Assembly: GCF_023806465.1 (NCBI RefSeq) | Contig: NZ_JAMSLS010000002.1 | Span: 310,001 to 374,000, forward strand | DNA: 64,000 nt | Direction of reading: 5' to 3' | From: Thermomicrobium sp. CFH 73360 | GTDB lineage: Bacteria > Chloroflexota > Chloroflexia > Thermomicrobiales > Thermomicrobiaceae | Shown here: positions 14,291-38,972 of the stretch, in pieces | How the letters are laid out: each line of letters begins with the position of its first letter | How positions within the stretch are numbered: the stretch's first letter is position 1 | Notes under the pieces: model-generated | Seen by the model: only the letters and a program-made list of their open reading frames with translations | Told to the model about the DNA's origin: nothing | Databases searched by the model: none | Position numbers and translations under genes: made by a program

Positions 14291-16090
14291 TCACCCCACC
14301 TCGACGAGCTCCATGTCTACGCGCCGGGCGTGGCGCACGTCGATCCCCTCCCACCGCTCACTGAGCCCTACCACCTGCACCAGGCAGTCCTCGCCAACCC
14401 CCGCATCGATGTCCCGAAACGCGACCACCGCCCCGCTCCGCCAGAGCTCCCACAATGCTGCGGCGAGCGTCCCTCCATCCCGCGTCTCCGCCCCACCACT
14501 GTCCCGCAGCAGCGGCGGCGCAAGCTGCACCGCAAACTGCCAGCGCCGCCGCGGTAGCCAGACTCCCTCACTCGCGCTTCCTCCACTTCCCTCCCCCACC
14601 GCCCCACCGGCCAACGCCCAGAGGCCCACGACCGCTGGCGACCAATCGGTGACGCCACTAACCGCAACCGTGGCCTGAAGCGCAGGAGACTCAAGCGGCA
14701 TGGTGAACCGCTCTTCCAGCACCACAAAGCCGCTCGCTGCCCCACCACCCACGCTCCGCCAGCTCCCCCAGCTCCAACTGGCCCCAGCATCGGCACTCCA
14801 GCCCACTCGCGCCTGCACCGCGCTCGCACCGCCCTCACCCAGCCAGGCGAGCGCCGCACCGACCCCAAGCCAGGGCACACTCGGCAGAGGGAGCCCCACC
14901 GCCAGCCCACTGGCCACGCGGAAGCTGCTGCGCAGTCCCGGAGAACCAGGACGGGGGACGGCTTGTCCGACGAGGAGTCCGTTCGTCCCCACCTGCACGA
15001 GCAGGAGGTCCGCGTCTGGGTGTCGGCCACCGACAGCCACCGGCCAGCCAGCCCCACTATCCGTCCACTCCTCCAGCAGGTACCACGGCTCCTCGCGCTC
15101 CCAATCCAGCACCAGCCCCTGCAGGGTGGCGAGTCGGCCCGGCGTGGCCCAGAGCTGCCACCGTCCGCTCACGGCGTCCTGGAGCACCACCCACAAGTAC
15201 CCCCCGGCACTCGCTGCCCCACGTGTCGCCAGCCCCCGTGGTCCGGTCGGCGTCCAGCCCCGGACCGACCCGGTGGTATCGGCCCGGTGCACTTGGCCAC
15301 TGAGCCAGGTATAGAGCGCGGTGCCGTGCCCGACGAGGAAGGCACCGTCGTCTTGGTTCAGCAGTGGCGTGAAGGTGAACAGGAGCTCGGCCGTGGTGCC
15401 TTTCAGGCGCCAGAGGGCGGTACGGGTCAGGGCCCAGACGAAACCAGCATGGCTGGCAAGCCGCCGCACTGGCGCGTCAAGGAGGAGCGTCGTGGAGCTC
15501 GTCGCCGCAGTGTAGCGGAGCACGCGGTCGTCCTGCCCGGCCGTGGTGGGCACCAGGTAGCCCGCTTGGCCATCGGTCGCGATGAGCCGTGCCGTATTCT
15601 GGTAGAAGCTCGTTGTGTAGGTGTTGGCCACAAGGTCGATACTCGAAACCTGCGCAGCAGACCCGTGGGTCAAGAGCAGCCTGGTGCCCATCTGGCAGGC
15701 ATCGACGACCGCGGCCGCGAGCGACCGCACTTCAGTCAGCCCACTGTAGCCGCTCCCCGGCGTTCCGGCGAGCCGCCACTGCCGATTGCCCGCGACCAGA
15801 TGCACCTCGGGTGCTACGATGCCGCTCCAGGCTGGACTCCCGCTCGGCCAGTTGGCCGGCGCGGTCGCCTCCACCAGTCGCGGTCCGGCGCGCAGCCCTT
15901 GCCCGTCCCAGACCGGCCAGGCGCCCAGGGAACTCCAGTACCGATCAGCTGCCCGCTGGAGTGCCTGCCCGGCCCGCGTAAAGCTCCGTACCACGACCCG
16001 TACCGGCCCGCTCGGCCGACGCGCCAGTGTCTCCCGCCGGTAGGTCCCGGGCAGGACCACGAGCGGGATTCCCGCCAGTTCCACCTCCAT
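14291..16090 (-). CDS. Phage tail/virion structural protein-like
   Basis: A 599-residue protein starting at ATG 16090 after AAGGGAAGGTG. The central part has repeated short beta-strand units (for example LIATDGQAGYLVPTTAG, ASHAGFVWALTRTALWRL, LVGHGTALYTWLSGQV) suggesting a beta-propeller. The last 90 residues (WQFAVQLAPPLLRD ... LAAALWELWRSGAVVAFRDI ... VQVVGLSERWEGIDV ... MELVEV) match the pattern of C-terminal domains of siphophage tail and virion proteins, where W-x-x-G-x-x-V-x-F-x-D is followed by a strand ending in LVEV. It is the last gene of the minus-strand phage series and is separated from the capsid gene by the DUF559 repeat cassette. Identification as tail is moderate. Confidence 0.55.
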   Translation of the reverse strand: MEVELAGIPLVVLPGTYRRETLARRPSGPVRVVVRSFTRAGQALQRAADRYWSSLGAWPVWDGQGLRAGPRLVEATAPANWPSGSPAWSGIVAPEVHLVAGNRQWRLAGTPGSGYSGLTEVRSLAAAVVDACQMGTRLLLTHGSAAQVSSIDLVANTYTTSFYQNTARLIATDGQAGYLVPTTAGQDDRVLRYTAATSSTTLLLDAPVRRLASHAGFVWALTRTALWRLKGTTAELLFTFTPLLNQDDGAFLVGHGTALYTWLSGQVHRADTTGSVRGWTPTGPRGLATRGAASAGGYLWVVLQDAVSGRWQLWATPGRLATLQGLVLDWEREEPWYLLEEWTDSGAGWPVAVGGRHPDADLLLVQVGTNGLLVGQAVPRPGSPGLRSSFRVASGLAVGLPLPSVPWLGVGAALAWLGEGGASAVQARVGWSADAGASWSWGSWRSVGGGAASGFVVLEERFTMPLESPALQATVAVSGVTDWSPAVVGLWALAGGAVGEGSGGSASEGVWLPRRRWQFAVQLAPPLLRDSGGAETRDGGTLAAALWELWRSGAVVAFRDIDAGVGEDCLVQVVGLSERWEGIDVRHARRVDMELVEVG

Positions 16091-16800
16091 GCGTCACCTT
16101 CCCTTCAGGCACGCGTCTCAATGCGGCTGCCCAATGGCGCACGTCAGCACGCTCGCCAACCGCGCGTTGCTGCGTCACACTGGCTGCGACCAGAGATCGA
16201 TCACCAGGCACCGCAGCGCGCGGACACTCTTGCGCACTGGCCTGCGCGGTGGGAATGGCAAGACCAGGCAGCAGACCGCCGGAGGCACGGTCTTTGTGTG
16301 TCTGCCAAGGCGTGCAGCGTCGAACCGCGGCATGCTGCCCAGGTCGGTCTCGGCTGCGCAGTCTGCGCTCTCCCCTACTTACCAAGTCGGCGACCGCTGC
16401 GCCACGCGGTACGCTCAAGCTTCCACGGCACCGCCCCCCGGTTCCCCACAGGACTGGGAACTCCCGGTCCACCGCACAGCCGAGGTCGCCCGCGCTCCAA
16501 CGCACGGGCGGGATCGGCCACATGGTTCAGTCGATACGACCATTGCATCCCACGCCACAAAAGTCAGGCATCTCCTCCGCCGACCTCCCCGCCCCAGCGA
16601 CCCCTCTTGCCGCAGCGGGCACCGACTTCGGGCGCATGGCCTCTCCGTATCGCCCCGCTTGCCAGCGTGCGCCATCCTTGTTCACGGACCTTCAGCCGTC
16701 CTGCAGCGACCGCTTGGTCAGCGCCCGGCATCCTGGTGAAAGACCCGGCGGGAAATCGGAAGGCCCACGCGCAGGCCCGTCCAGCCAGCACCCCATGATC
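16091..16800. other. Non-coding gap upstream of tail-like gene
   Basis: No gene supported. Long open frames cross it in several directions, but none has a start signal or protein-like composition. In an ordinary tailed phage this position would hold further tail genes. Confidence 0.5.
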
Positions 16801-17215
16801 TCCCTCTCGCGCTGGTTCCTCCCTCCCCAGGCCCCCTCTCCCCCTGGTTCTGCCCTCACCCCCTCGGCCCTGGCGACTGTCTTCACCCCTGCCCGCGTCC
16901 CGTATCTGCCTCCCGAAGCGCCCGTGACCACTCTCCCACTGGTTCTGCCCTCACCCCCAGGCCCCCTCTCACCCACGGGTTCTACCCTCACCCGCTGGCC
17001 CCCTCTCCCACACTCAGTGGGAGAGGGGGCCTTCCCTCACCCCCTGCCCCCTCTCCCACTGGTTCTGCCCTCACCCCCAGGCCCCCTCTCCCGCACGGAG
17101 CGGGAGAGGGGGTTGGGGGTGAGGGGTGTCTCTGCAGGAGGAAGCTGGTTCCCCCTGTCCCGCCAGATGGGCCACGGGTTGGGAGTGAGGGTGGTTCTGA
17201 CGGGTGAGAGAGGTT
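16801..17215. repeat. GGGAGAGGGGG/CCCTCACCCC repeat array, left of DUF559 gene
   Basis: Tandem half-units (CCCCCTCTCCCACTGGTTC ... TGCCCTCACCCCCAGG) at about 16,830, 16,930 and 17,048 lead into two palindromes. One is CCCCTCTCCCAC / GTGGGAGAGGGG at 16999-17029. The larger is centred near 17,096: CCCTCACCCC...CCCCCTCTCCCGC paired with GCGGGAGAGGGGG...GGGTGAGGG (17068-17125). The array ends with a 65-base block (17127-17191) that is repeated, with 5 mismatches, at 18379-18443 on the other side of the endonuclease gene. Confidence 0.85.
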
Positions 17216-17439
17216 AGCGGGTAGAGGGGACCGGCTGCAGCGGGGATTGTGGAGTGCGGGCAGAAAGGGAACCGCTGTCGATCCGCTCTCTGACCGGCGG
17301 TGAAGGAGGGAACGGGATCAACGAGCCGACGGCGTCGGGTGGCTGACGACTCCCTAAGGTTCAGCAGAGGACAATTGGCTGAACTGGAGTTCACCAGTCT
17401 GGATCATTCTCTCTCACTCGTGCGCAACCGCCGAGCGGT

Positions 17440-17802
17440 TCACTCGGGTCTTGACGGAAGTGCCCGATGGATCCGCTCGAGAACCTGTGGCAGGTCGTCA
17501 AAAACGTCGTGGTTCTCGAATCGGAGGACGGTATAGCCGAGAGCTCGGAGGTACTCGTCCCGGTACTGATCGTACTCTTGCTGCTGCTCATGCACTGGGC
17601 CATCGACCTCTACCACAAGTCGAGCAGCAAGGCACACGAAATCGACGATGTACGGACCCAGCTGGTGCTGGCGGCGGAACTTCCAACCGGCGAGCTGGCG
17701 ATTCCGCAGAGCGTTCCAAAGACGGCGCTCGGCCTCTGTCTGTCGAGCCCGCAGCTCGCGCCGCTGCAACCGGCGATTCTCTCGTTGCTCGTCCATCCAC
17801 AT
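17440..17802 (-). CDS. DUF559 (Vsr/restriction-endonuclease-like) protein
   Basis: About 120 residues from ATG 17802 (a second ATG at 17796 is equally possible; no strong ribosome binding site is seen; the frame opens further upstream but without family similarity). The sequence shows the DUF559 pattern: RRELRARQTEAERRLWNALRNRQLAGWKFRRQ, then VDFVCLAARLVVEVDGPVH with the PD-(D/E)XK-type D...E-x-DG-x-x-H residues, and LRALGYTVLRFENHDV. Family members are predicted single-domain nucleases related to Vsr. It is flanked on both sides by arrays of one complex palindromic repeat, as RAYT transposases are by REP sequences. Substrate and function are unknown. Confidence 0.8.
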   Translation of the reverse strand: MWMDEQRENRRLQRRELRARQTEAERRLWNALRNRQLAGWKFRRQHQLGPYIVDFVCLAARLVVEVDGPVHEQQQEYDQYRDEYLRALGYTVLRFENHDVFDDLPQVLERIHRALPSRPE

Positions 17803-18059
17803 CTCTGGTGTGTGCAATCCGTTGGAACGCCCGCTAGCAGAGCCGTCTTGATGCCGGTGCGAGGACGCTGCTGGGCGGAAGCATAGCAGATTGCGACGCC
17901 TCTGTTTGTACCCGCCAGGTCGGTCACCACTGGCTGAACAGCGCAACGTGCTTGTCGTGCAGGCGCGTTCCAATCTCTGGCGATCTTGACCCGCGGTGGT
18001 GTACTGGGTCCGCCTCCTTCACCAGGTGCCGGAGATACTGCCCCTACCTGCCTGGCTCT

Positions 18060-18560
18060 CGGGATTACCCTCAAGGCCCTACTCCCACGCGTTCTGCCCT
18101 CACCCCTTTGCCCCCTCTCACCCACTGTTTCCGCCCTCACCCCCTGACCCCCTCTCCCACACTCAGTGGGAGAGGGGGGCTTCCCTCACCCCTTAGCCCC
18201 CTCTCCCGCACGGAGCGGGAGAGGGGGTTGGGGGTGAGGGTTGTCTCTGCGGGAGAGGGGGTTGGGGGTGAGGGTTGTCTCTGCGGGAGAGGGGATTGGG
18301 GGGTGAGGGTTGTCTCTCCGGGAGCGCGGGTTGGGGGTGAGGGTTGCCTCTCCGGGAGAGGCGGCTGGGCGCGAGGGGTGTCCCTGCAGAAGAAAGGTGG
18401 TTCCCTCTGTCCCGCCAGATGGGCCACGGGTTGGGAGTGAGGGCTGTCTGTGCGGGATGAGGGTGGCCTGCGGAAGCGGGAATGGGAGAGTGAGGGTGGT
18501 TGCAACGGGAGAGGGAGGTTGCGGGATGGCGGTGACCTTCGGCAGCTGGGTTGGGGAGCG
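18060..18560. repeat. GGGAGAGGGGG/CCCTCACCCC repeat array, right of DUF559 gene
   Basis: The array opens with CCCTCACCCC half-units, then palindromes centred near 18,164 and 18,211, then about five tandem copies of a roughly 35-base unit (GGGAGAGGGGGTTGGGGGTG + AGGGTTGTCTCTGC) with increasing divergence, and the 65-base terminal block (18379-18443). Degenerate units continue to about 18,530. Sub-element order and orientation match the left array. Confidence 0.85.
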
Positions 18561-18666
18561 CCCGCAGGCGAGCGAAGCAGGGAGTATCAGACGCGCAATG
18601 GGTAGGGTAGGCTCATGAGATGGAACGACACCGCGGGGTGTCGGGCAGCCGAGACCCCGCCATCGA

Positions 18667-19554
18667 TTAGTTCGCGGTGATCCCCTGCAGTTGCGCCACC
18701 GCCACGGTCGAGAAGAGCGCTAGCCCCACGTACCAGCGCACCCGCCACCGTCGGGCGTTCTTGGTCTCCAACGCCCCCACTTCCTCCACCGTGATTCCGC
18801 CGTTTTCCAACCCCATCAGCCCACTCGGCCCAAACTTCACGGCGTAGATCGAGGAGAGGTTCGTCCCCGACCCCAGCGTCTCGTCGTCCGGCACAAAGTC
18901 GTCCACCAGCACCGGGATACCATCGTAGGTGACAATCCGCTGCCCGAACTGATCGATTTCGCTTTCCAACACCGTGCCGCTGCTGCGCCGCAGTTGGGCC
19001 AGCTTGCGCCGCGTACGCTTGGACATGAGCAGCGCGTCCGGCTTGCCCGGCTTGACCAGGTCGATCAGCTGGTCGAGGAGCTCCAGCGTGAGGCTGCCGC
19101 CGTTCGGCCCAGGCTGGATCGTCTGGCTGGCCGGCACGAGCTTGCGCAGCCCATCGAACTGTTTGGGGTTGACCACGCTGTTACCCCGGTAGAAGGCCTG
19201 CAGGAAGGCATGGGCCACTGCCTTCGCCTTCTGCTGCAGCACCACCGCCTCGAGCTGGTTCGGATCGCGGTAGGTCTGCAAGAGAAAATGATCGATATCA
19301 GCGTCCCCACCGAGGATCTTGAGCCCGGTCGTGACCTGCTCAAACGTGGGAGTCGATTCTGTCCAGGTATCACCGACATCGTAGAACTCGGCGGCCGGGA
19401 GGGTCGCTTCGCGGTTGTACGTCAGCCCGGTCCCAACGACCTCCATGAACGGCAGCCGCTGCAGCACCGGCGACTCCATGACGATCGTCTCGATCACCCC
19501 ACGTAGCAAGAGGTCATTGGTCAACTTGGCCGCTTCTGCCTTGGTCAGTGCCAT
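18667..19554 (-). CDS. Phage major capsid protein (HK97-type)
   Basis: A 295-residue protein. ATG 19554 follows GAAGGAGGAG; an upstream extension to 19803 is low-quality sequence. The pattern fits phage capsid proteins of the HK97 fold: an N-terminal MALTKAEAAKLTNDLLLRGVIETIVMESPVLQRLPF arm, an E-loop-like TYNREATLPAAEFYDVGDTWTE region, the spine helix DPNQLEAVVLQQKAKAVAHAFLQAFYRG, a P-domain/A-domain stretch LDQLIDLVKPGKPDALLMSKRTRRKL, and the C-terminal RWYVGLALFSTVAVAQLQGI strand. It is short and has no prohead protease or scaffold domain; no separate protease gene is seen. Flanked by repeats on both sides. Confidence 0.82.
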   Translation of the reverse strand: MALTKAEAAKLTNDLLLRGVIETIVMESPVLQRLPFMEVVGTGLTYNREATLPAAEFYDVGDTWTESTPTFEQVTTGLKILGGDADIDHFLLQTYRDPNQLEAVVLQQKAKAVAHAFLQAFYRGNSVVNPKQFDGLRKLVPASQTIQPGPNGGSLTLELLDQLIDLVKPGKPDALLMSKRTRRKLAQLRRSSGTVLESEIDQFGQRIVTYDGIPVLVDDFVPDDETLGSGTNLSSIYAVKFGPSGLMGLENGGITVEEVGALETKNARRWRVRWYVGLALFSTVAVAQLQGITAN

Positions 19555-19789
19555 CGGTCTCCTCCTTCCTCGACAGCAACGCTCTCGACTTCCGCTGCCG
19601 CAGCAAAACGCGCCTGTACGCCTGACCCATCGCCGGGCCAGTAGTGCAGTGCCGGATCGATTGCAACGGCACCGCAGTCCGCAGCTGCCCAGGCAACACA
19701 AGGCGGGAATTGCCGGCGATGCAGCCTCTGGCGCCCGCGGTTGCCAATGACGCCCGGGCACACCACTGACAGCCCGGTGCAAAACGCTG

Positions 19790-20290
19790 TCTGAATTCCC
19801 CACGCCCCGGCGGGGCTCGCGCGCAACCCGGTGCCCCCGGCTGTACTCCCCACGCCCCCAGTGGGGGTGCCGCGATTCAGCTCAGTCGTTCACGAATGGG
19901 CCGGTGGTGGGCGACAGGTCGATTGCCCCTCCCAGTGGCGGTGATGTGTCCGATGGTGCATGATGGTCCCGGCAAATGTGGCCGGGGCGCAACCGCGGAC
20001 CCGCGGCATCATGTGCCCAGGGCTTGACGTGCCCCGGGTTCGCAACCCGGACTTTCAACCCGCAGCCTGAATTCCCCACGCCCTGACGAGACTAACGTGG
20101 AACCTGGTGCCCTGGGGCTGAATCCCACCCCCGGTGGGACACATCCGAGCCGACTTCAGCCAGTATCGGGATTCAGCCCAGGCGTTCACGAGCGGGAGCT
20201 AGTGGCCAATCGGTACCGCCGTCTCATTTCAACCCGGCCGTTCATACGGCTGGGCGCATCAATCGGCCGTTCACGGCTGGGCTGGCACGG
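19790..20290. repeat. Dispersed repeat family 2, copy 2 and related palindromes
   Basis: Contains CCCACGCCCC-x-GGGG units (about 19,800 and 19,850), CATGTGCCCAGGGCTTGACG followed by the palindrome CCGGGTTCGCAACCCGG (about 20,035-20,051), GGGGCTGAATCCCACCCC, GACTTCAGCCAGTATCGGGA and CCGTTCACGGCTGGG elements. Order and sequence match the block at 10545-10800. Non-coding, upstream of the capsid gene. Confidence 0.5.
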
Positions 20291-20993
20291 ACCCCTGCAA
20301 TGCATCACAGGGTTGGCATTCTGCGCACCGCAACACATGGACCAAACGGCTGCGGGCCGACGCAGGAGCGCTCAGACCATGCCAGGGAGGGTCTCAGGCC
20401 GACCAGGCCTGTAAACGAACGCTCAGGCGAGGAACCCGAGGAGCCGCTTCTGCCTCGGCCGCTCGAGTCGCCGGTGAGTGACCACCCGTAGTCATCGCGA
20501 GCGCTGAGGTCGCCTGCCTCATGGCACCGACCGTGCTCGCATACAGAGCGAATGACGCTCGGGAGGTCACGCTCGCTGACGAACAGAACGCCAAATTCGA
20601 CCTGCCAGGCGAAGGCTTCGCCGAACTCCTGCGCGCGCCAACGGGAACGTGCCCCCTTCACACGCCCGATCGCCGTTGCCAAGGCGTCGCGTGTGGGGAC
20701 AGGACACGACACGGTGGACCTCGTCACGAGAGCCGCCAACTGCGTGCCCGACCACCCCGTGGCGATGTGCCGTGCGCGCGACTGTGGACCAAACGATCCG
20801 TTCACCCTCAGGGGAGCTGAACGGATGACGCTCTCGCGTTGACCACATCACGCGGTCAACGCGACGCCACTATGGCACAGCTCCTCCATTCTCGCCCAGC
20901 CGGCCATCCACTCGCTGCAGTGCTACCACGGCAGCCCATGTTCTCCCAGGGCAAGAGGCCTAGCGATCAGGGGCGGCGTATCTCATCCCCCGC
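20291..20993. other. Non-coding gap between capsid and small head gene
   Basis: No gene is supported. Short frames exist on both strands but lack start signals. Confidence 0.45.
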
Positions 20994-21545
20994 TCACCCA
21001 ACGCGGACAACCCGCACGCTGCGCGGGAGCGCCGCGCCAGCACGCTCACGGGCGCTTCGCACTGCAGCCAGCGCTGCCATCAGCGGCTCGGTCGGTCCTT
21101 GGTGGCGGGCCTGCACGGTGACCACCTGTGTCAGCAGCGTCTCAACGGCTGCGGCGAGGAGATAGGCTTCCTCCGCTGGGTCCGTCAGCGGCAGGGTTTG
21201 GTCGGGCTGGGTGACGAGCTCCCGGGCAAGGTGGCAGCGCAGCTCGACCGTGCCGATGACTGGCTCACCCAGCAGCAACGTCCCATTCCAGACAGCCCAA
21301 TGATCGAGCGGCCGTCCCTTGACGAGCACAGCCCAGACGCGCCGCACCGTACTGGGCAGCGGGAGTTGGTCGGTACCGGCTGCGGCCAACGTGACGGTCC
21401 CCTGCCGTGGAGCCAGAGCATCAAGCTGCGCGAGCGCCGTGACGAGTGCTGCATCCAGGTCGGCGTCGGTCACGGCCGTCGGAGGAACCAGATCACCGAG
21501 CCAGCGACGGAGCGCCAGCCGGGCCTCAGCCAGCGTCAGCGTCAT
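20994..21545 (-). CDS. Phage-associated hypothetical protein (possible head completion/connector)
   Basis: A 183-residue soluble protein, ATG 21545, with GGGAAGGGGTG ten bases upstream. It starts MTLTLAEARLALRRWLGD, reminiscent of head-tail connector proteins, and is rich in Leu/Ala/Thr, with a beta-rich middle (TVTLAAAGTDQLPLPSTVRRVWAVLVKG) and helical C-terminus. I do not recognise it with certainty. It lies between portal and capsid genes on the same strand, where small head proteins or scaffolds are usual. Confidence that it is a real gene is high; the role is inferred from position. Confidence 0.6.
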   Translation of the reverse strand: MTLTLAEARLALRRWLGDLVPPTAVTDADLDAALVTALAQLDALAPRQGTVTLAAAGTDQLPLPSTVRRVWAVLVKGRPLDHWAVWNGTLLLGEPVIGTVELRCHLARELVTQPDQTLPLTDPAEEAYLLAAAVETLLTQVVTVQARHQGPTEPLMAALAAVRSARERAGAALPRSVRVVRVG

Positions 21546-21745
21546 TAGTCACACCCCTTCCCTGACCACCGGTCGTCCACCGTGGCCCCCGCTCAGCTAG
21601 GCGGCCTTCCAGCACCGCGGCTGGGCAAAAACACTGTCCGCAGCAGTACCTTCGGCAGCCGCAGCGGAAGGGCAAGACCAGGAAACGGTACTGGTCTCAC
21701 CTGATGCTGGAAGACTCAGGGACACCCATGGACCACATCGGAGCG

Positions 21746-22032
21746 CTACGCAGGAGCATCGAGTGCGCCTGCCCGCAAAACGGTCCCGAGCTGCTCGAGT
21801 GCATGGTCAGCATCGCACTGGAGCTCCAAGCGGAAGCAGAGAGCGCAGCAGACGATTCGCATCCCGTGTCGTGCATGGTGCACGTGGGCTGTGACGTCAA
21901 ACCCACGCTCTCGCCGATCAACTGGCGCACCAGCGCTTGCCACAGCGCGATGGCATAACGCGCAGGAGAGGGCAACAGCGCGTGCATGGCGCGGCGAGCA
22001 TCTGCGTCCTGCACTTGCCCGTCAGAACTCAC
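21746..22032 (-). CDS. Possible small gene after portal, with a candidate -1 frameshift site
   Basis: A GTG at 22032 overlaps the portal stop codon and opens a frame (SSDGQVQDADARRAM...YAIALWQALVRQLIGESVG) ending at 21697 if read straight. At GTG GGT TTG (about 21,903) the heptamer G GGT TTG fits the X XXY YYZ slippery pattern. A -1 shift there continues as FDVTAHVHHARHGMRIVCC... to a stop at 21746, with clustered His/Cys residues. Neither product is recognised, and an opposite-strand frame (21704-21958) is equally open, so the gene itself is doubtful. Confidence 0.25.
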
Positions 22033-23312
22033 AGACCGGCGGCACGCTCCGCCTCGACGCGCTGGAGCTCCGCCTCCGGGTCAAGCGCCCCGAGCTCCCG
22101 GGCCGCAGTCAGCCGCGAGCGGATGCCAGCTCCCACCAGGGCCACCTGGACACGTGCCGCCCGCTCGTCGTCCACGGGGAGCGTCGGTCCCCAGACCAGC
22201 TCGACGGCACGGACGCCGTGAAACTCGGCACCACCAAAACGCTCGGCCAAGTCGAGCACCCGCCAGGCACGTTGGCGCAGTGCTCGTTCCCAAGCCCGCC
22301 GCTTGCGTTCCACCTTATGGACTAATGGTTGCAGCTCCAACTCCAAGGCCGCGCCGGAAAGGTCCCGCCCGTGGTCGCCAAAGGCGGCTCGGGGGACCTC
22401 AGCCAGGTCATGGAGCACCTGGAAGAGGAGGCGCACGTACTCCAGATGGAGCGCGACGCCACCGCCACTCAACATGTCGAGGAGATAGGCACGGCTGCCC
22501 TCGGGCAGTTCCCAGATAGCCCCCTCCTCGGCCCGGATCCCCTCGCTGGCCGTCACGTTCTCGAGCACGACGATCGGGTTGCCGCTGACCTGCAGGATGC
22601 GTGAAAGGACGGTCATCCGCCGATTGATCTCCCGGCAGATGTCGATGAGATCAGCCAGGTCGCTTTCTCCCCAGACGTCGCCCGGGATTGGGGAATTGGG
22701 CACGAGCACGTAGGGAATCCACCCGTAGGGATTGGGCCCGTCATGGACGACCTGTCCGCCCACGAGGAGTCGATAGCCCTCGGCCGTCCATTCCTCGCGC
22801 ACCGTCACCCACCCTTCCGGACCCAGCGCCGGGAGCTTGAGCCCAAACACCTGCTCCACCGCGCCCAGCGTCAGCGGATACTCGTGCGCGAGCGCCACCA
22901 CCTCACGCACGTCATCGGGACGGGACGCAACGACCAGCTGTGCCGGATCGACCGCAGTCACGCGCGGGCGACGACGTTCCTGATCCCACGTCACCTTGAA
23001 GGCAGCATCCCCCAGCACCGCAGCATCCAGCGCCGCTGCGTAATCAAGCCCATGCCAGTCACTCTCCCCGGCCAGCTGGGCCAGGTAGCGCTCTGCCGCC
23101 GCCGATTCCGGCACGCTGTAGCGCACTGGTCGACTGAACAGGACACTGGTGACCTTACGCACCAAGGCCCGGGCGTAGTTCAGGACCAGGCGTGTCTCCC
23201 CAGGACGCGGTCGATCCGGCCACTGCCGACCTTCCCAGAAAGCCAGATACTCACGATAGCGCGCCCAACGGGCCCGATCGGCCGCGGTGGGCTCCAGGGG
23301 CACTGGGTCCAT
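22029..23312 (-). CDS. Phage portal protein
   Basis: A 427-residue protein starting at ATG 23312 after AAGGAAGGAG. It has the portal pattern of the SPP1-gp6/phage_portal group: RYREYLAFWEGRQW near the start, then LVLNYARALVRKVTSVLFSRPVRY (the family's N-terminal clip/wing entry), a middle with SDLADLIDICREINRRMTVLSRILQVSGNPIVV (crown-adjacent helices), PEGSRAYLLDMLSGGGVALHLEYVRLL, and a long stem helix around LELELQPLVHKVERKRRAWERALRQRAW. The portal forms the dodecameric DNA gate of the head and docks the large terminase. It is separated from the terminase gene by a 600-base gap filled with palindromic repeats. Confidence 0.83.
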   Translation of the reverse strand: MDPVPLEPTAADRARWARYREYLAFWEGRQWPDRPRPGETRLVLNYARALVRKVTSVLFSRPVRYSVPESAAAERYLAQLAGESDWHGLDYAAALDAAVLGDAAFKVTWDQERRRPRVTAVDPAQLVVASRPDDVREVVALAHEYPLTLGAVEQVFGLKLPALGPEGWVTVREEWTAEGYRLLVGGQVVHDGPNPYGWIPYVLVPNSPIPGDVWGESDLADLIDICREINRRMTVLSRILQVSGNPIVVLENVTASEGIRAEEGAIWELPEGSRAYLLDMLSGGGVALHLEYVRLLFQVLHDLAEVPRAAFGDHGRDLSGAALELELQPLVHKVERKRRAWERALRQRAWRVLDLAERFGGAEFHGVRAVELVWGPTLPVDDERAARVQVALVGAGIRSRLTAARELGALDPEAELQRVEAERAAGL

Positions 23313-23914
23313 CAGCGTCTCCTTCCTTCGGAGATCCGGTCAACTGGCAAGGGCCGCACGCGATGCCGCCGCCGCGGCGCCCTCTCCCGGCAACTCCTTC
23401 TCAACCCGCCATTCCGATCCCGCCCGCCCGGCGCGACCGGGATAGCGGCAGCAGGCAACGCCGCAACCTGGTCGTCGCGATACCGGCCCAGAAACTCATC
23501 TGCAGGCACCACTCTCAGCCCCTCACCCGCAGGGCCACCCCTGTCCCCGCTCCGGTGGTTGCCCGCTCACTCCCGGCCGCGCTCCTGCAGGCTCTCCTCA
23601 CCCCCGTCTTTACTCCTGCCAGTTCCCCGCACCGCCATCACCGCTCCCGTCGGCTCCCCTCACCCACAACCCCCTCTCCCGTAGGCTCCCCTCACCTGCA
23701 ACCCCCTCTCCCGTCGGCTCCCCTCACCCCCAACCCCCTCTCCCGCAATGTGCGGGAGAGGGGGCGAAGGGGGTGAGGGTGGTAACCGCGAGAGGGGGCG
23801 AAGGGGGTGAGGGTGGTAACCGCGAGAGGGGGCAAGGGGGTGAGGGTGGCAACCGGGCGGGAGAGGGGGGTGAGGGTGGTAACCACGGGCAAGGAGACGA
23901 GGGTCGTGCCGGGG
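23313..23914. repeat. GGGAGAGGGGG/CCCTCACCCC repeat array between portal and terminase genes
   Basis: The right half (about 23,640-23,910) holds half-units GGCTCCCCTCACC...AACCCCCTCTCCCGT, a palindrome CCCTCTCCCGCA / TGCGGGAGAGGG around 23,745, then tandem units GGGGGCGAAGGGGGTGAGGG with GTGGTAACCGCGAGA. It is the same family as the arrays around the DUF559 gene, with no endonuclease gene here. The left 300 bases are featureless. Confidence 0.8.
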
Positions 23915-25414
23915 CTAGGGGTGAGGGCCGGGACCACTCCCCACCCGCCCGCGGGCCACCCGCGGGCGCCAGTCCTCGTCGTCGAGACACGTCGTGAGTG
24001 CAGCACTCACCGCCAGGTCATCGTGCGGCTCACCCCACCAGCGGAGCAGTCGTCCCGGCCCCGGAGCAACGACTCCCTTGAGGCTGGCCAACTCGGCCAG
24101 GAACGCCTCCGACAGCGCCGCGAGTTCTGGCGGCGTCGCCGGATCCAGGGCGTAGTCACGGTAGCGACCACTCTCAACCAGCCCAATGAAGGCCCAGCCC
24201 AGTTCTGACTTCACCCGTGGGCTGAAGACAATCGGTCGCACCCGCTCGCCGAGGGCCTGTCGGAGGAAGCTCGCCAGCCCCGCCCCGATGCCGGTGGCAT
24301 CGACCACCACCCGTTCAGCGCGCCACGCCCGGGCCAGTCGCACCAACTCCTCGTACTGCCGCACCTGCCGCAGACCGACCCACCGTGCTCGCCACACCGC
24401 CTCATAGCGCGGCCGCTCACCGGGGACGATCCGCACCACCGTCAACGCTGTCGCATCACGGCGCACGGTCGGATCGGTCCGGAGCTCCTCCTGGCTTGCC
24501 TCGTCTTCCCCCGCGACGTCGACCAGCAGCGCGTAGCGCTCGCCGGCACGCGGAGCGAGCAGTCCGGCATGAGTACCGCGCACCAGGGCCAGTCGCTCCG
24601 GCGGGAAGAGACGACCCTGACCGGCCAACTCCTCCAAACAGTACTCAGTGCGGATAAATGGATGCCCTGGGCCCAACTGGGCGATCCGCTCCTCGACGTG
24701 GACCTTGTAGGCTGGCAGCGTGGCGGCCACCACCGTCCAGGGGACGCGCCAGACACGCCGCTGCCCGTCATCCTGTTCGAGCGCCTCGAGATAGCGCAGC
24801 TCCCGAGCCAACAGCGAATCGGCGTCCCATGGCGTGCCGAGGTAGAGGGCGGGAGCGCCGGTCGAGGCGGCCATCGGAGCAAAGGCGCTATCCCACCGGT
24901 CCGGCCGGATATCCTGCGCCTCGTTGGCCACCAAGAGGAGCGATGCAGTCAGGCCTCGGACGTTCGCGCTCGGTCCAGCAGAGACATAGCGCACGACGGC
25001 GCGTCCCAAGGTCACGCTGCTGCCACTGACCTGAGGCATGAGCTCGAGCGCTGTCAGGAGTGCTGCCAGCCGCGGCGAGGTGAGGACCGCCCGCAAGCGT
25101 TCCCGTGCCACGACACCTTGCGGCCGCCACGAAGGGAGTGCCACCACAATCTCACCCCCGCGGCGATGATAGCGGAGCAGCAGCCAAGCCAAGAGCTGCG
25201 CCAACGCCTCGTCCTTCCCCGACTGCCGGCTGAACAGCCACACCTGCGCGTGCGGTACCGCACGGTCCCCCCGCGCCCGGCCCACAACCATCGCCGCCGT
25301 AGCCACTACCGGCCCAACTTGGTAGGCACGGAGGGCACGCTCCGGCAGGAGCTGGTGCGAGAACGCGACCGGATCAGCCAGAAGGCAACGCAGAACGTGC
25401 TGGGCAACGGTCAT
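23915..25414 (-). CDS. Phage terminase large subunit (TerL)
   Basis: A 499-residue DNA-packaging motor protein. The ATPase half has a Walker A-like SRQSGKDEA at about residues 62-70 (Asp where Ser/Thr is common), an LLLVANEAQDI Walker B with the catalytic Glu, and an LYLGTPW coupling-like motif. The nuclease half has three acidic clusters: LLVDVAGED, RVVVDATGIG and HDDLAVSAAL, as in RNase H-fold terminase nucleases. ATG 25414 overlaps the stop of the holin-like gene by four bases (ATGA), so they are translationally coupled. All key residues appear intact, which argues for function or recent loss rather than long decay. Confidence 0.88.
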   Translation of the reverse strand: MTVAQHVLRCLLADPVAFSHQLLPERALRAYQVGPVVATAAMVVGRARGDRAVPHAQVWLFSRQSGKDEALAQLLAWLLLRYHRRGGEIVVALPSWRPQGVVARERLRAVLTSPRLAALLTALELMPQVSGSSVTLGRAVVRYVSAGPSANVRGLTASLLLVANEAQDIRPDRWDSAFAPMAASTGAPALYLGTPWDADSLLARELRYLEALEQDDGQRRVWRVPWTVVAATLPAYKVHVEERIAQLGPGHPFIRTEYCLEELAGQGRLFPPERLALVRGTHAGLLAPRAGERYALLVDVAGEDEASQEELRTDPTVRRDATALTVVRIVPGERPRYEAVWRARWVGLRQVRQYEELVRLARAWRAERVVVDATGIGAGLASFLRQALGERVRPIVFSPRVKSELGWAFIGLVESGRYRDYALDPATPPELAALSEAFLAELASLKGVVAPGPGRLLRWWGEPHDDLAVSAALTTCLDDEDWRPRVARGRVGSGPGPHP

Positions 25415-37912: not shown

Positions 37913-38972
37913 ACGTCTCCAAACCTCCTTGCGTCATCGGCGTAGGACACGTCGACGACACTCGACCGCGGGCAAGACGTCCTCGCCCGCTGCCGCATCT
38001 TCGCCTGTCCGGGCGCGGGGGCGGCACCCCGCTCAACCGCTTGCCGCTCCTGCGGCTCACCTCCCCTTCCCTCGGCGCCTTCCCTCCTTTCCCCAGTCCG
38101 TTCCCATCCCTTGACGCGCAGTCTTCTCCGTTCCCCCAACCGGAACCGGCGGGTGCGCCCGCCCGCTCGGCCCCAGGCGCAGTCTACCAGCGTTCTCGCC
38201 GGGTGTCTAGTCCCAACGCGCGGAAGCGACCACTCGGGCAGCCCCCGCTCGACTGCACCCACTATCTCTAACGTACGAAGCGGACTCATGGTTGCGCAGC
38301 TGTGACCGTCCCGCCCTCTCCCGTCTGCTCCCCTCACCCCCAACTCCGCTCCCCGCGGCTCCTCTCACCCTAACCCCTCTCCCGCCTTTGTTTCCCTCAC
38401 CCCCCAACCCCCCTCTCCCGCACGTTACGGGAGAGGGGGTTGGGGGGTGAGGGTGGCAACCCCCCTCTCCTGCGTGTTGCGGGAGAGGGGGTGAAGGGGC
38501 GGTGGGGGTGGTGCCTGCGGGAGAGAGAGCAACGGGGTGAGGGTGGTCACCGCAGCAGAGGGCGCCAGGGGGTGAGGGTGGCACCCCCTCTCCCACACGT
38601 GGTGAGAGAGGGGGCACGGGGGTGAGGGCGGTCACTGCGAGAGGGGCAAGGGACACAGCCGCATCGCCCCTCCAGGAGTCAGACCCCTCGCGCACCGGGC
38701 CGCACTCACCCTGCCCCCGGTGACTCGAGTGACGAGCTCCTCCCCTGCGATCGTCTCATCGGCCGAGCGATGTTCGTGCCGCCAGATCACGACGAGCGGC
38801 GCTCCTCGCCCTTCGAGGCCGGTGACACACCCAGGCGTCGTCGCCATGCGCTAGTCACCGATGCCCCGTCAGGCCGTGCCGCCAGACGCGACGGGCCATT
38901 GCCACGTCGCGCTGACGACGATGGATCCGCCGCGGGCTCGTGTTCTGGACTGACGGCGTGTCTGGTGCACGC
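37913..38972. repeat. Gap with GGGAGAGGGGG/CCCTCACCCC repeat array
   Basis: The array at about 38,310-38,650 has a near-perfect palindrome CCCCCCTCTCCCGCACG / TTACGGGAGAGGGGG around 38,422, a second CTCTCCTGCGTG / TTGCGGGAGAGGGGG near 38,475, then tandem GGGGTGAGGGTGGTCACCGC and GGGGGTGAGGGTGGCACCCC units and a third palindrome near 38,600. Same family as around the DUF559 gene; no endonuclease gene here. The rest of the gap shows nothing. Confidence 0.8.

Follow-up and report, generated by a model that had tools for sequence, protein, structure and literature searches.

A DUF559 nuclease gene between palindromic repeat arrays in Thermomicrobium, and the association of the two across bacteria

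In the stretch of the Thermomicrobium sp. CFH 73360 genome analysed here (the window: 64,000 nucleotides, positions 310,001 to 374,000 of contig NZ_JAMSLS010000002.1), one small nuclease gene lies between two arrays of a complex palindromic repeat. An initial annotation, made from the letters of the sequence, had suggested that DUF559 proteins may mobilise or maintain the repeat in a manner analogous to the RAYT enzymes of REP sequences.

The DUF559 gene and its flanking arrays

The gene (17440..17796, minus strand) encodes a YcjD-like protein of 118 aa from an ATG start; its reading frame stays open up to 17973, and 17440-17796 is the likeliest coding sequence. It is the only DUF559 gene in the whole host genome, which spans 3.06 Mb and is 99.7% complete. 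The protein belongs to the DUF559/YcjD family, matching PF04480 with an E-value of 5e-40 and 136 bits (curated cut-off 20.6) and the DUF559 protein model NF007294 at 2.5e-26, and it falls outside the Vsr family, scoring 19 bits on TIGR00632 where the cut-off is 97.85. The conserved E...D...ExDGxxH...D residues are intact (E23, D52, E63, D65, H69 and D76), so the nuclease with its catalytic residues is indeed present between the blocks, as first described. Foldseek ranked the AlphaFold2 model of the protein (mean pLDDT 86.8) closest to the DUF559 structure 3HRL (E 6e-9), then to the catalytic domain of I-Bth0305I (E 1e-4), and more weakly to Vsr (E 0.12); earlier work had placed YcjD, together with its relative Vsr, in the PD-(D/E)XK superfamily (PMC1189080). 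The gene thus encodes a DUF559 protein with a predicted PD-(D/E)XK/Vsr-like fold and not an HUH Y1 transposase. None of the PADLOC models matched the system in the window, and on that ground an anti-phage defence function was set aside.

The left repeat block (16985..17191, unstranded) is built of CCCTCACCC tags and CCCCCTCTCCC...GGGAGAGGGGG hairpin units oriented both ways and closes with a terminal unit. Its plus-strand elements are a first hairpin at 16999..17029 (CCCCCTCTCCCACACTCAGTGGGAGAGGGGG), a composite of tag, hairpin and inverted tag at 17068..17126 (GGGGTGAGGGG; family D3) and the 65-base terminal unit at 17127..17191. The right block (18097..18443, unstranded; families D1 and D3-D5) carries the same sub-elements in the same order, together with extra 34-bp tandem units; its core (18134..18240, plus strand) consists of a tag and hairpin (18134-18178) followed by a tag, hairpin and inverted tag (18183-18240), and its terminal unit (18379..18443, plus strand) is the counterpart of 17127-17191. 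The two terminal units are identical at 60 of 65 positions, the longer stretches 17101-17191 and 18353-18443 at 82 of 91, and the first hairpins (16999-17033 and 18148-18182) at 34 of 35, which confirms the earlier reading that the left-block sub-elements recur on the right with order and orientation kept. The two blocks are therefore direct copies, each composed of tag-and-hairpin units in both orientations. Degenerate half-units of family D2 precede the left block (16825..16980, plus strand), and arrays of the same repeat family without a DUF559 gene lie at 23641..23900, between the portal and terminase genes, and at 38314..38590 (both unstranded). A strict half-unit, defined as CCCTCACCCN{0,9}CCCTCTCCC, occurs 15 times in the window and not once in 100 dinucleotide shuffles of it; among the 16 found genome-wide, nine flank the DUF559 gene, six fall at 23657-23876 and 38394-38453, and one is on another contig.

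The locus is part of a prophage-like block (14291-25414; terminase, portal and major head protein) that holds several repeat arrays. In G126, which belongs to the genus of the window, two arrays but no DUF559 gene occupy the orthologous prophage interval, and in the related prophage of G174 the DUF559 gene is located elsewhere. The head protein gene of the G126 prophage contains one in-frame TGA (L349; G126:C1:157375-158295), so this prophage may be decaying. A phage origin of the gene-repeat pair was considered and rejected: an annotated phage collection searched by tblastn held no DUF559 relative, and of the closest relatives on viral contigs, only a subset has repeats beside the gene. On these grounds the prophage looks like a host of the pair and not its source.

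The repeat is GC-rich. In the window, a short spacer separates the pyrimidine tag of the unit, CCCTCACCC, from its hairpin, CCCTCTCCC-loop-GGGAGAGGG, and the unit is found in both orientations. The tag, as a putative third strand, is mirror-symmetric to the GC-rich stem (CCCTCACCC to CCCTCTCCC in the window), as in the PIT, boxC and TM-ECO intrastrand triplex motifs described by Holder et al. 2015 (PMC4666352). When a mirror tag was counted at 7/9 matches or better, 177 of 305 units at DUF559 loci carried one on the gene-proximal side, versus 53 of 305 on the distal side. The tag also covaries with its stem, matching its own stem better than the stems of others across 76 stem types (p 6e-7), and many DUF559 loci that lack the exact 9-mers have variants built on this design, such as CCCCCATCCTAACCTTCCCCC or CCCATCCCCACCCTAGCCCTCCCC. 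Because the tag mirrors the stem and changes with it, the geometry is that of an intrastrand triplex and, judged by this design, the window repeat is of the already known PIT/boxC/TM kind. The triplex of the E. coli motif has been formed in vitro (PMC4666352), and type A and type B copies form inverted pairs both in that work and in the present analysis. Where the two differ is in the neighbouring gene: the earlier study gave no link to flanking genes, never met mobility-providing activities near the motif and leaves DUF559 unmentioned (PMC4666352), whereas a DUF559 neighbour is found here.

The link between DUF559 genes and the repeat across phyla

The initial annotation had proposed looking for the repeat beside DUF559 genes in other genomes. 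The association proved strong in all three samples drawn, one from Chloroflexota, an independent one from Pseudomonadota and one spanning many phyla, and it is absent for Vsr genes. In each sample, the density of repeat motifs within 250 bp of DUF559 genes is ~40-60 times that at distances of kilobases. Around 80 Chloroflexota DUF559 genes, the strict half-unit reaches 1.57/kb within 250 bp, falls to 0.34/kb at 250-500 bp and to 0.03-0.09/kb beyond; at 80 GTDB loci from many phyla, picked by protein similarity alone, the 9-mers CCCTCACCC/CCCTCTCCC occur at 8.3/kb within 250 bp versus 0.03-0.35/kb beyond; and in a draw of 60 Pseudomonadota DUF559 genes, the 9-mers stand at 7.1/kb near the gene versus ~0.1/kb beyond 1 kb. 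Across 251 Chloroflexota genomes, the repeat is present in 67 of 81 with a strong DUF559 match and in 53 of 170 without (odds ratio 10.6, p 7e-15), and in Pseudomonadota in 41 of 61 and 17 of 188, respectively (odds ratio 20.6, p 1e-18). These genome counts ignore shared ancestry; the decay with distance within a locus needs no such correction.

We also used a motif-free test, in which the inverted similarity between the 200 bp on either side of the gene was scored against a threshold and compared with control windows. Inverted-repeat flanks were found at 58 of 77 GTDB, 39 of 60 Pseudomonadota and 34 of 78 Chloroflexota DUF559 loci, while control windows passed the same score in 4 of 2651 and 1 of 1005 cases (~0.1%). 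Genes of the related Vsr nuclease family gave inverted flanks in 0 of 27 cases, with 9-mers at 0.07/kb. Together, these measurements establish a link between the DUF559 gene and the repeat that spans many phyla. In a Mantel test, DUF559 similarity correlated weakly with repeat similarity (r 0.15 overall and 0.09 between phyla, a value reached in 156 of 2000 shuffles), and for this reason we do not claim tight co-speciation of enzyme and repeat sequence.

E. coli K-12 carries a single ycjD gene, which we take to be its sole known annotated DUF559 gene, alongside 23 reported copies of the repeat. A full repeat unit, reading CCCTCACCCTAACCCTCTCCC, lies ~170 bp downstream of K-12 ycjD, outside the promoter. 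Among 5426 E. coli genomes searched, the repeat occurs in 5377 and ycjD in 3365 (62%). A clean empty site was sought in E. coli and the candidate discarded: the ycjD-less strains examined carry an efflux operon between fabI and sapF, so the ycjD site has been replaced and is not empty. This operon (L448:2529-10017) comprises TetR, an RND pump and an MFS gene. At the start of K-12 ycjD lies a long near-perfect palindrome, TCACCTCATTCTGACAA...TTGTCAGAATGAGGTGA (L157:6761-6805), which is unlike the triplex repeat and is possibly an operator.

Cassettes at unrelated sites, inside genes and at one metH site

Cassettes of repeat, DUF559 gene and repeat, 598-697 bp in length, occur at unrelated sites. 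Similar cassettes are present twice in G111 (93% identical) and twice in G168 (81%), and also in G078 and G110; in the clearest pairs, the homologous stretch is bounded by the outer repeat edges or by points just beyond them. The G111 cassettes (L108 and L120) end in terminal inverted repeats of ~90 bp, and their terminal motif has 12 near-matches in the G111 genome. Other cassettes lie in frame inside restriction-modification genes and inside metH, mfd and valS: the mfd insert has a stretch of homology to E. coli Mfd on either side, and the valS insert falls between Thermus residues 590 and 603. A Rickettsiales mfd (L191:8618-12997) is split in frame by DUF559, with repeat arrays on both sides. 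Translation of the repeats explains the 'NPLPxGEG'-type protein tails at DUF559 loci and the in-frame inserts in metH, mfd and valS. Judged by where its copies lie, the cassette has been mobile over evolutionary time.

Copies without the gene are found as well. The genome of G487 contains dispersed elements of ~150 bp with sharp ends, arranged as hairpin-tag-spacer-tag-hairpin; of six copies, two share flanks and the others have unrelated ones, and the layout of their ends is that of the cassettes. Doublets in G315 have the layout opposite to that in G487.

One metH site in one Chloroflexota family is found in three states. It is empty in G112, G005, G264 and G261, holds repeats only in G253, G272 and G254, and holds repeat, DUF559 gene and repeat in G046, G255, G018, G274 and G290, and also in G224 and G028; the full sites have direct composite repeats, as the window does. 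Sites lacking the gene, which the first reading of this locus had called for, thus exist both here and in the same-genus prophage interval that has arrays alone. The seven metH inserts form one clade (100/98), and the host tree requires 5-6 changes of state to accommodate them. The host data reject a grouping of G018 with G290 (p 1e-88), and the insert data reject a grouping of G018 with its genus-mate G046 (p 0.008, from ~100 aa and for a clade picked after the identities had been seen). As is expected of a homing gene, the site is occupied in some relatives and the insert tree conflicts with that of the hosts, the conflict test being post hoc. One insert clade, scattered hosts and conflicting trees together point to site-specific horizontal spread, and at the level of sequence this pattern is the signature that homing elements show. 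At L323, L339 and L324, loci of other genomes, this metH linker contains another kind of repeat, which starts with GTAG (GTAGGGACAGGTCTCGCACCTGTCC) and is possibly a RAYT-type REP; the linker thus seems prone to insertions in general.

Known systems and competing explanations

By behaviour, REPINs with their RAYTs are the nearest known system. In both, the gene of a single-domain DNA enzyme is flanked by tag-and-hairpin palindromes, the dispersed unit is an inverted doublet, repeats outnumber genes, and variants differ by genome. However, the RAYT is an HUH Y1 transposase (TnpA-REP) and the REP tag is GTAG, whereas DUF559 is predicted from its model to be a Vsr/PD-(D/E)XK-type nuclease and the tag of its repeat usually mirrors the stem, in triplex geometry. 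Further, RAYTs are described as single-copy and not self-mobile (PMC3116915), whereas the cassette with the DUF559 gene is mobile and inserts into coding sequences. Assignment to the REPIN/RAYT family fails on the enzyme, which is no HUH transposase. The REP/RAYT-like analogy first drawn for this locus therefore holds structurally, in the tag-and-hairpin units, inverted pairs and REPIN-like solo elements, but the metH data favour homing-type spread of the cassette at least as much as RAYT-style transposition.

The EDxHD homing endonuclease I-Bth0305I (PDB 3R3P) has what appears from the model to be the closest solved fold after 3HRL, and it too is a selfish nuclease gene placed at specific sites; DUF559 differs in being a lone domain of ~110 aa, surrounded by palindromic repeats and outside introns. 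The Vsr mismatch endonuclease has a probably related fold (E 0.12) and a weak profile match, and differs in that its genes have no repeat flanks (0/27). A ShiLan-type homing insertion (PMC11855218) likewise leaves the frame of the host gene open; there, an HNH nuclease lies out of frame in phage methylases, whereas DUF559 lies in frame and is bounded by repeats. No paper linking DUF559 to the repeat was found in the literature searched, which took in few subscription journals.

We consider it probable that the locus in the window is one copy of a selfish element with a wide distribution, composed of a small nuclease gene of putative PD-(D/E)XK (Vsr/I-Bth0305I) fold and its cognate tag-and-hairpin repeats, and behaving in a homing- or REPIN-RAYT-like manner. 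DUF559 is the best candidate for the spreader of the repeat, since its gene sits between repeat copies and the unit acts like a selfish mobile element. The protein would recognise the repeat in hairpin form, or folded into a possible intrastrand triplex of tag and stem, and would cut at the repeat or a related site; repair of the break by copying a repeat-DUF559-repeat donor would then spread the cassette, which is homing. REPINs are thought to spread via RAYTs in trans, and solo repeats may do the same here as non-autonomous passengers, while arrays would expand or drop the gene by recombination between direct copies. Several observations count against the selfish-element reading: the arrays in the window are direct and lie ~250-340 bp from the DUF559 gene, a looser spacing than usual; more than half of Chloroflexota DUF559 genes are without a clear inverted flank at the threshold used (34 of 78 pass); the Mantel correlation between phyla is weak; the insert-side tree conflict at metH comes from ~100 aa and a post hoc choice of clade; and 20 Chloroflexota genomes with at least 20 half-units, as well as G460 and G481, are rich in the repeat and have no strong DUF559 match.

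Solo doublets far exceed DUF559 genes (389 half-units and one DUF559 gene in G110), and they are dispersed, with constant spacing and sharp ends, as they would be if DUF559 acted by RAYT-style transposition, excising the repeat doublet and inserting it by way of a structured single-stranded intermediate while its own gene moved rarely. We regard this as unlikely. The gene is found in cassettes at different sites, with two same-genome pairs, and at one metH site in scattered hosts, none of which is the conduct of a single-copy gene that does not move itself, and the predicted fold is PD-(D/E)XK, not HUH. It is improbable that DUF559 serves as a nuclease of repair or DNA-structure processing that keeps breaks or triplexes at the repeats in check, with flanks that regulate the gene and a domesticated pair that travels jointly: regulation leaves the in-frame metH, mfd and valS cassettes and the copies at unrelated sites unexplained, and the full unit in E. 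coli lies downstream of ycjD and not in its promoter, even though a Vsr-like fold, a repeat tied to genome instability (PMC4666352) and a standing ycjD locus would all suit such a role.

Some cassettes have long terminal inverted repeats, as the L108/L120 pair does, and gene-less copies with cassette ends exist; both would be expected had DUF559 been captured as cargo by a repeat-ended MITE-like element that an unrelated transposase moves. Mere cargo, however, would not recur across phyla with differing repeat variants while the nuclease family stays constant, and we give this explanation a slender chance. Scarcely credible is passive accumulation, in which repeats and DUF559 genes share tolerant sites and are functionally unlinked: repeats lie within tens of bases of the gene on both sides, their ~50-fold enrichment fades within 500 bp and Vsr genes show no such flanks, despite the existence of solo repeats without DUF559 and of unrelated GTAG-type repeats at the metH site.

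The repeat is widespread in E. coli and other bacteria, its spread has been unexplained, and the 2015 survey found no nearby mobility gene; one small nuclease family of unknown function is now found beside it across phyla. We put at about even the chance that DUF559 proteins are the missing mobility enzymes of the PIT/boxC/triplex repeats, that is, Vsr-fold nucleases that recognise a triplex or hairpin and spread their own gene along with non-autonomous doublets, in many phyla including E. coli (ycjD) and even in frame in essential genes. If this is true, it would constitute a second REPIN-like system, with a nuclease unrelated to RAYT; it would give DUF559 a function and would link DNA triplex-forming sequences to a protein. 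The long-open question of how the repeat spreads becomes directly testable in E. coli K-12.
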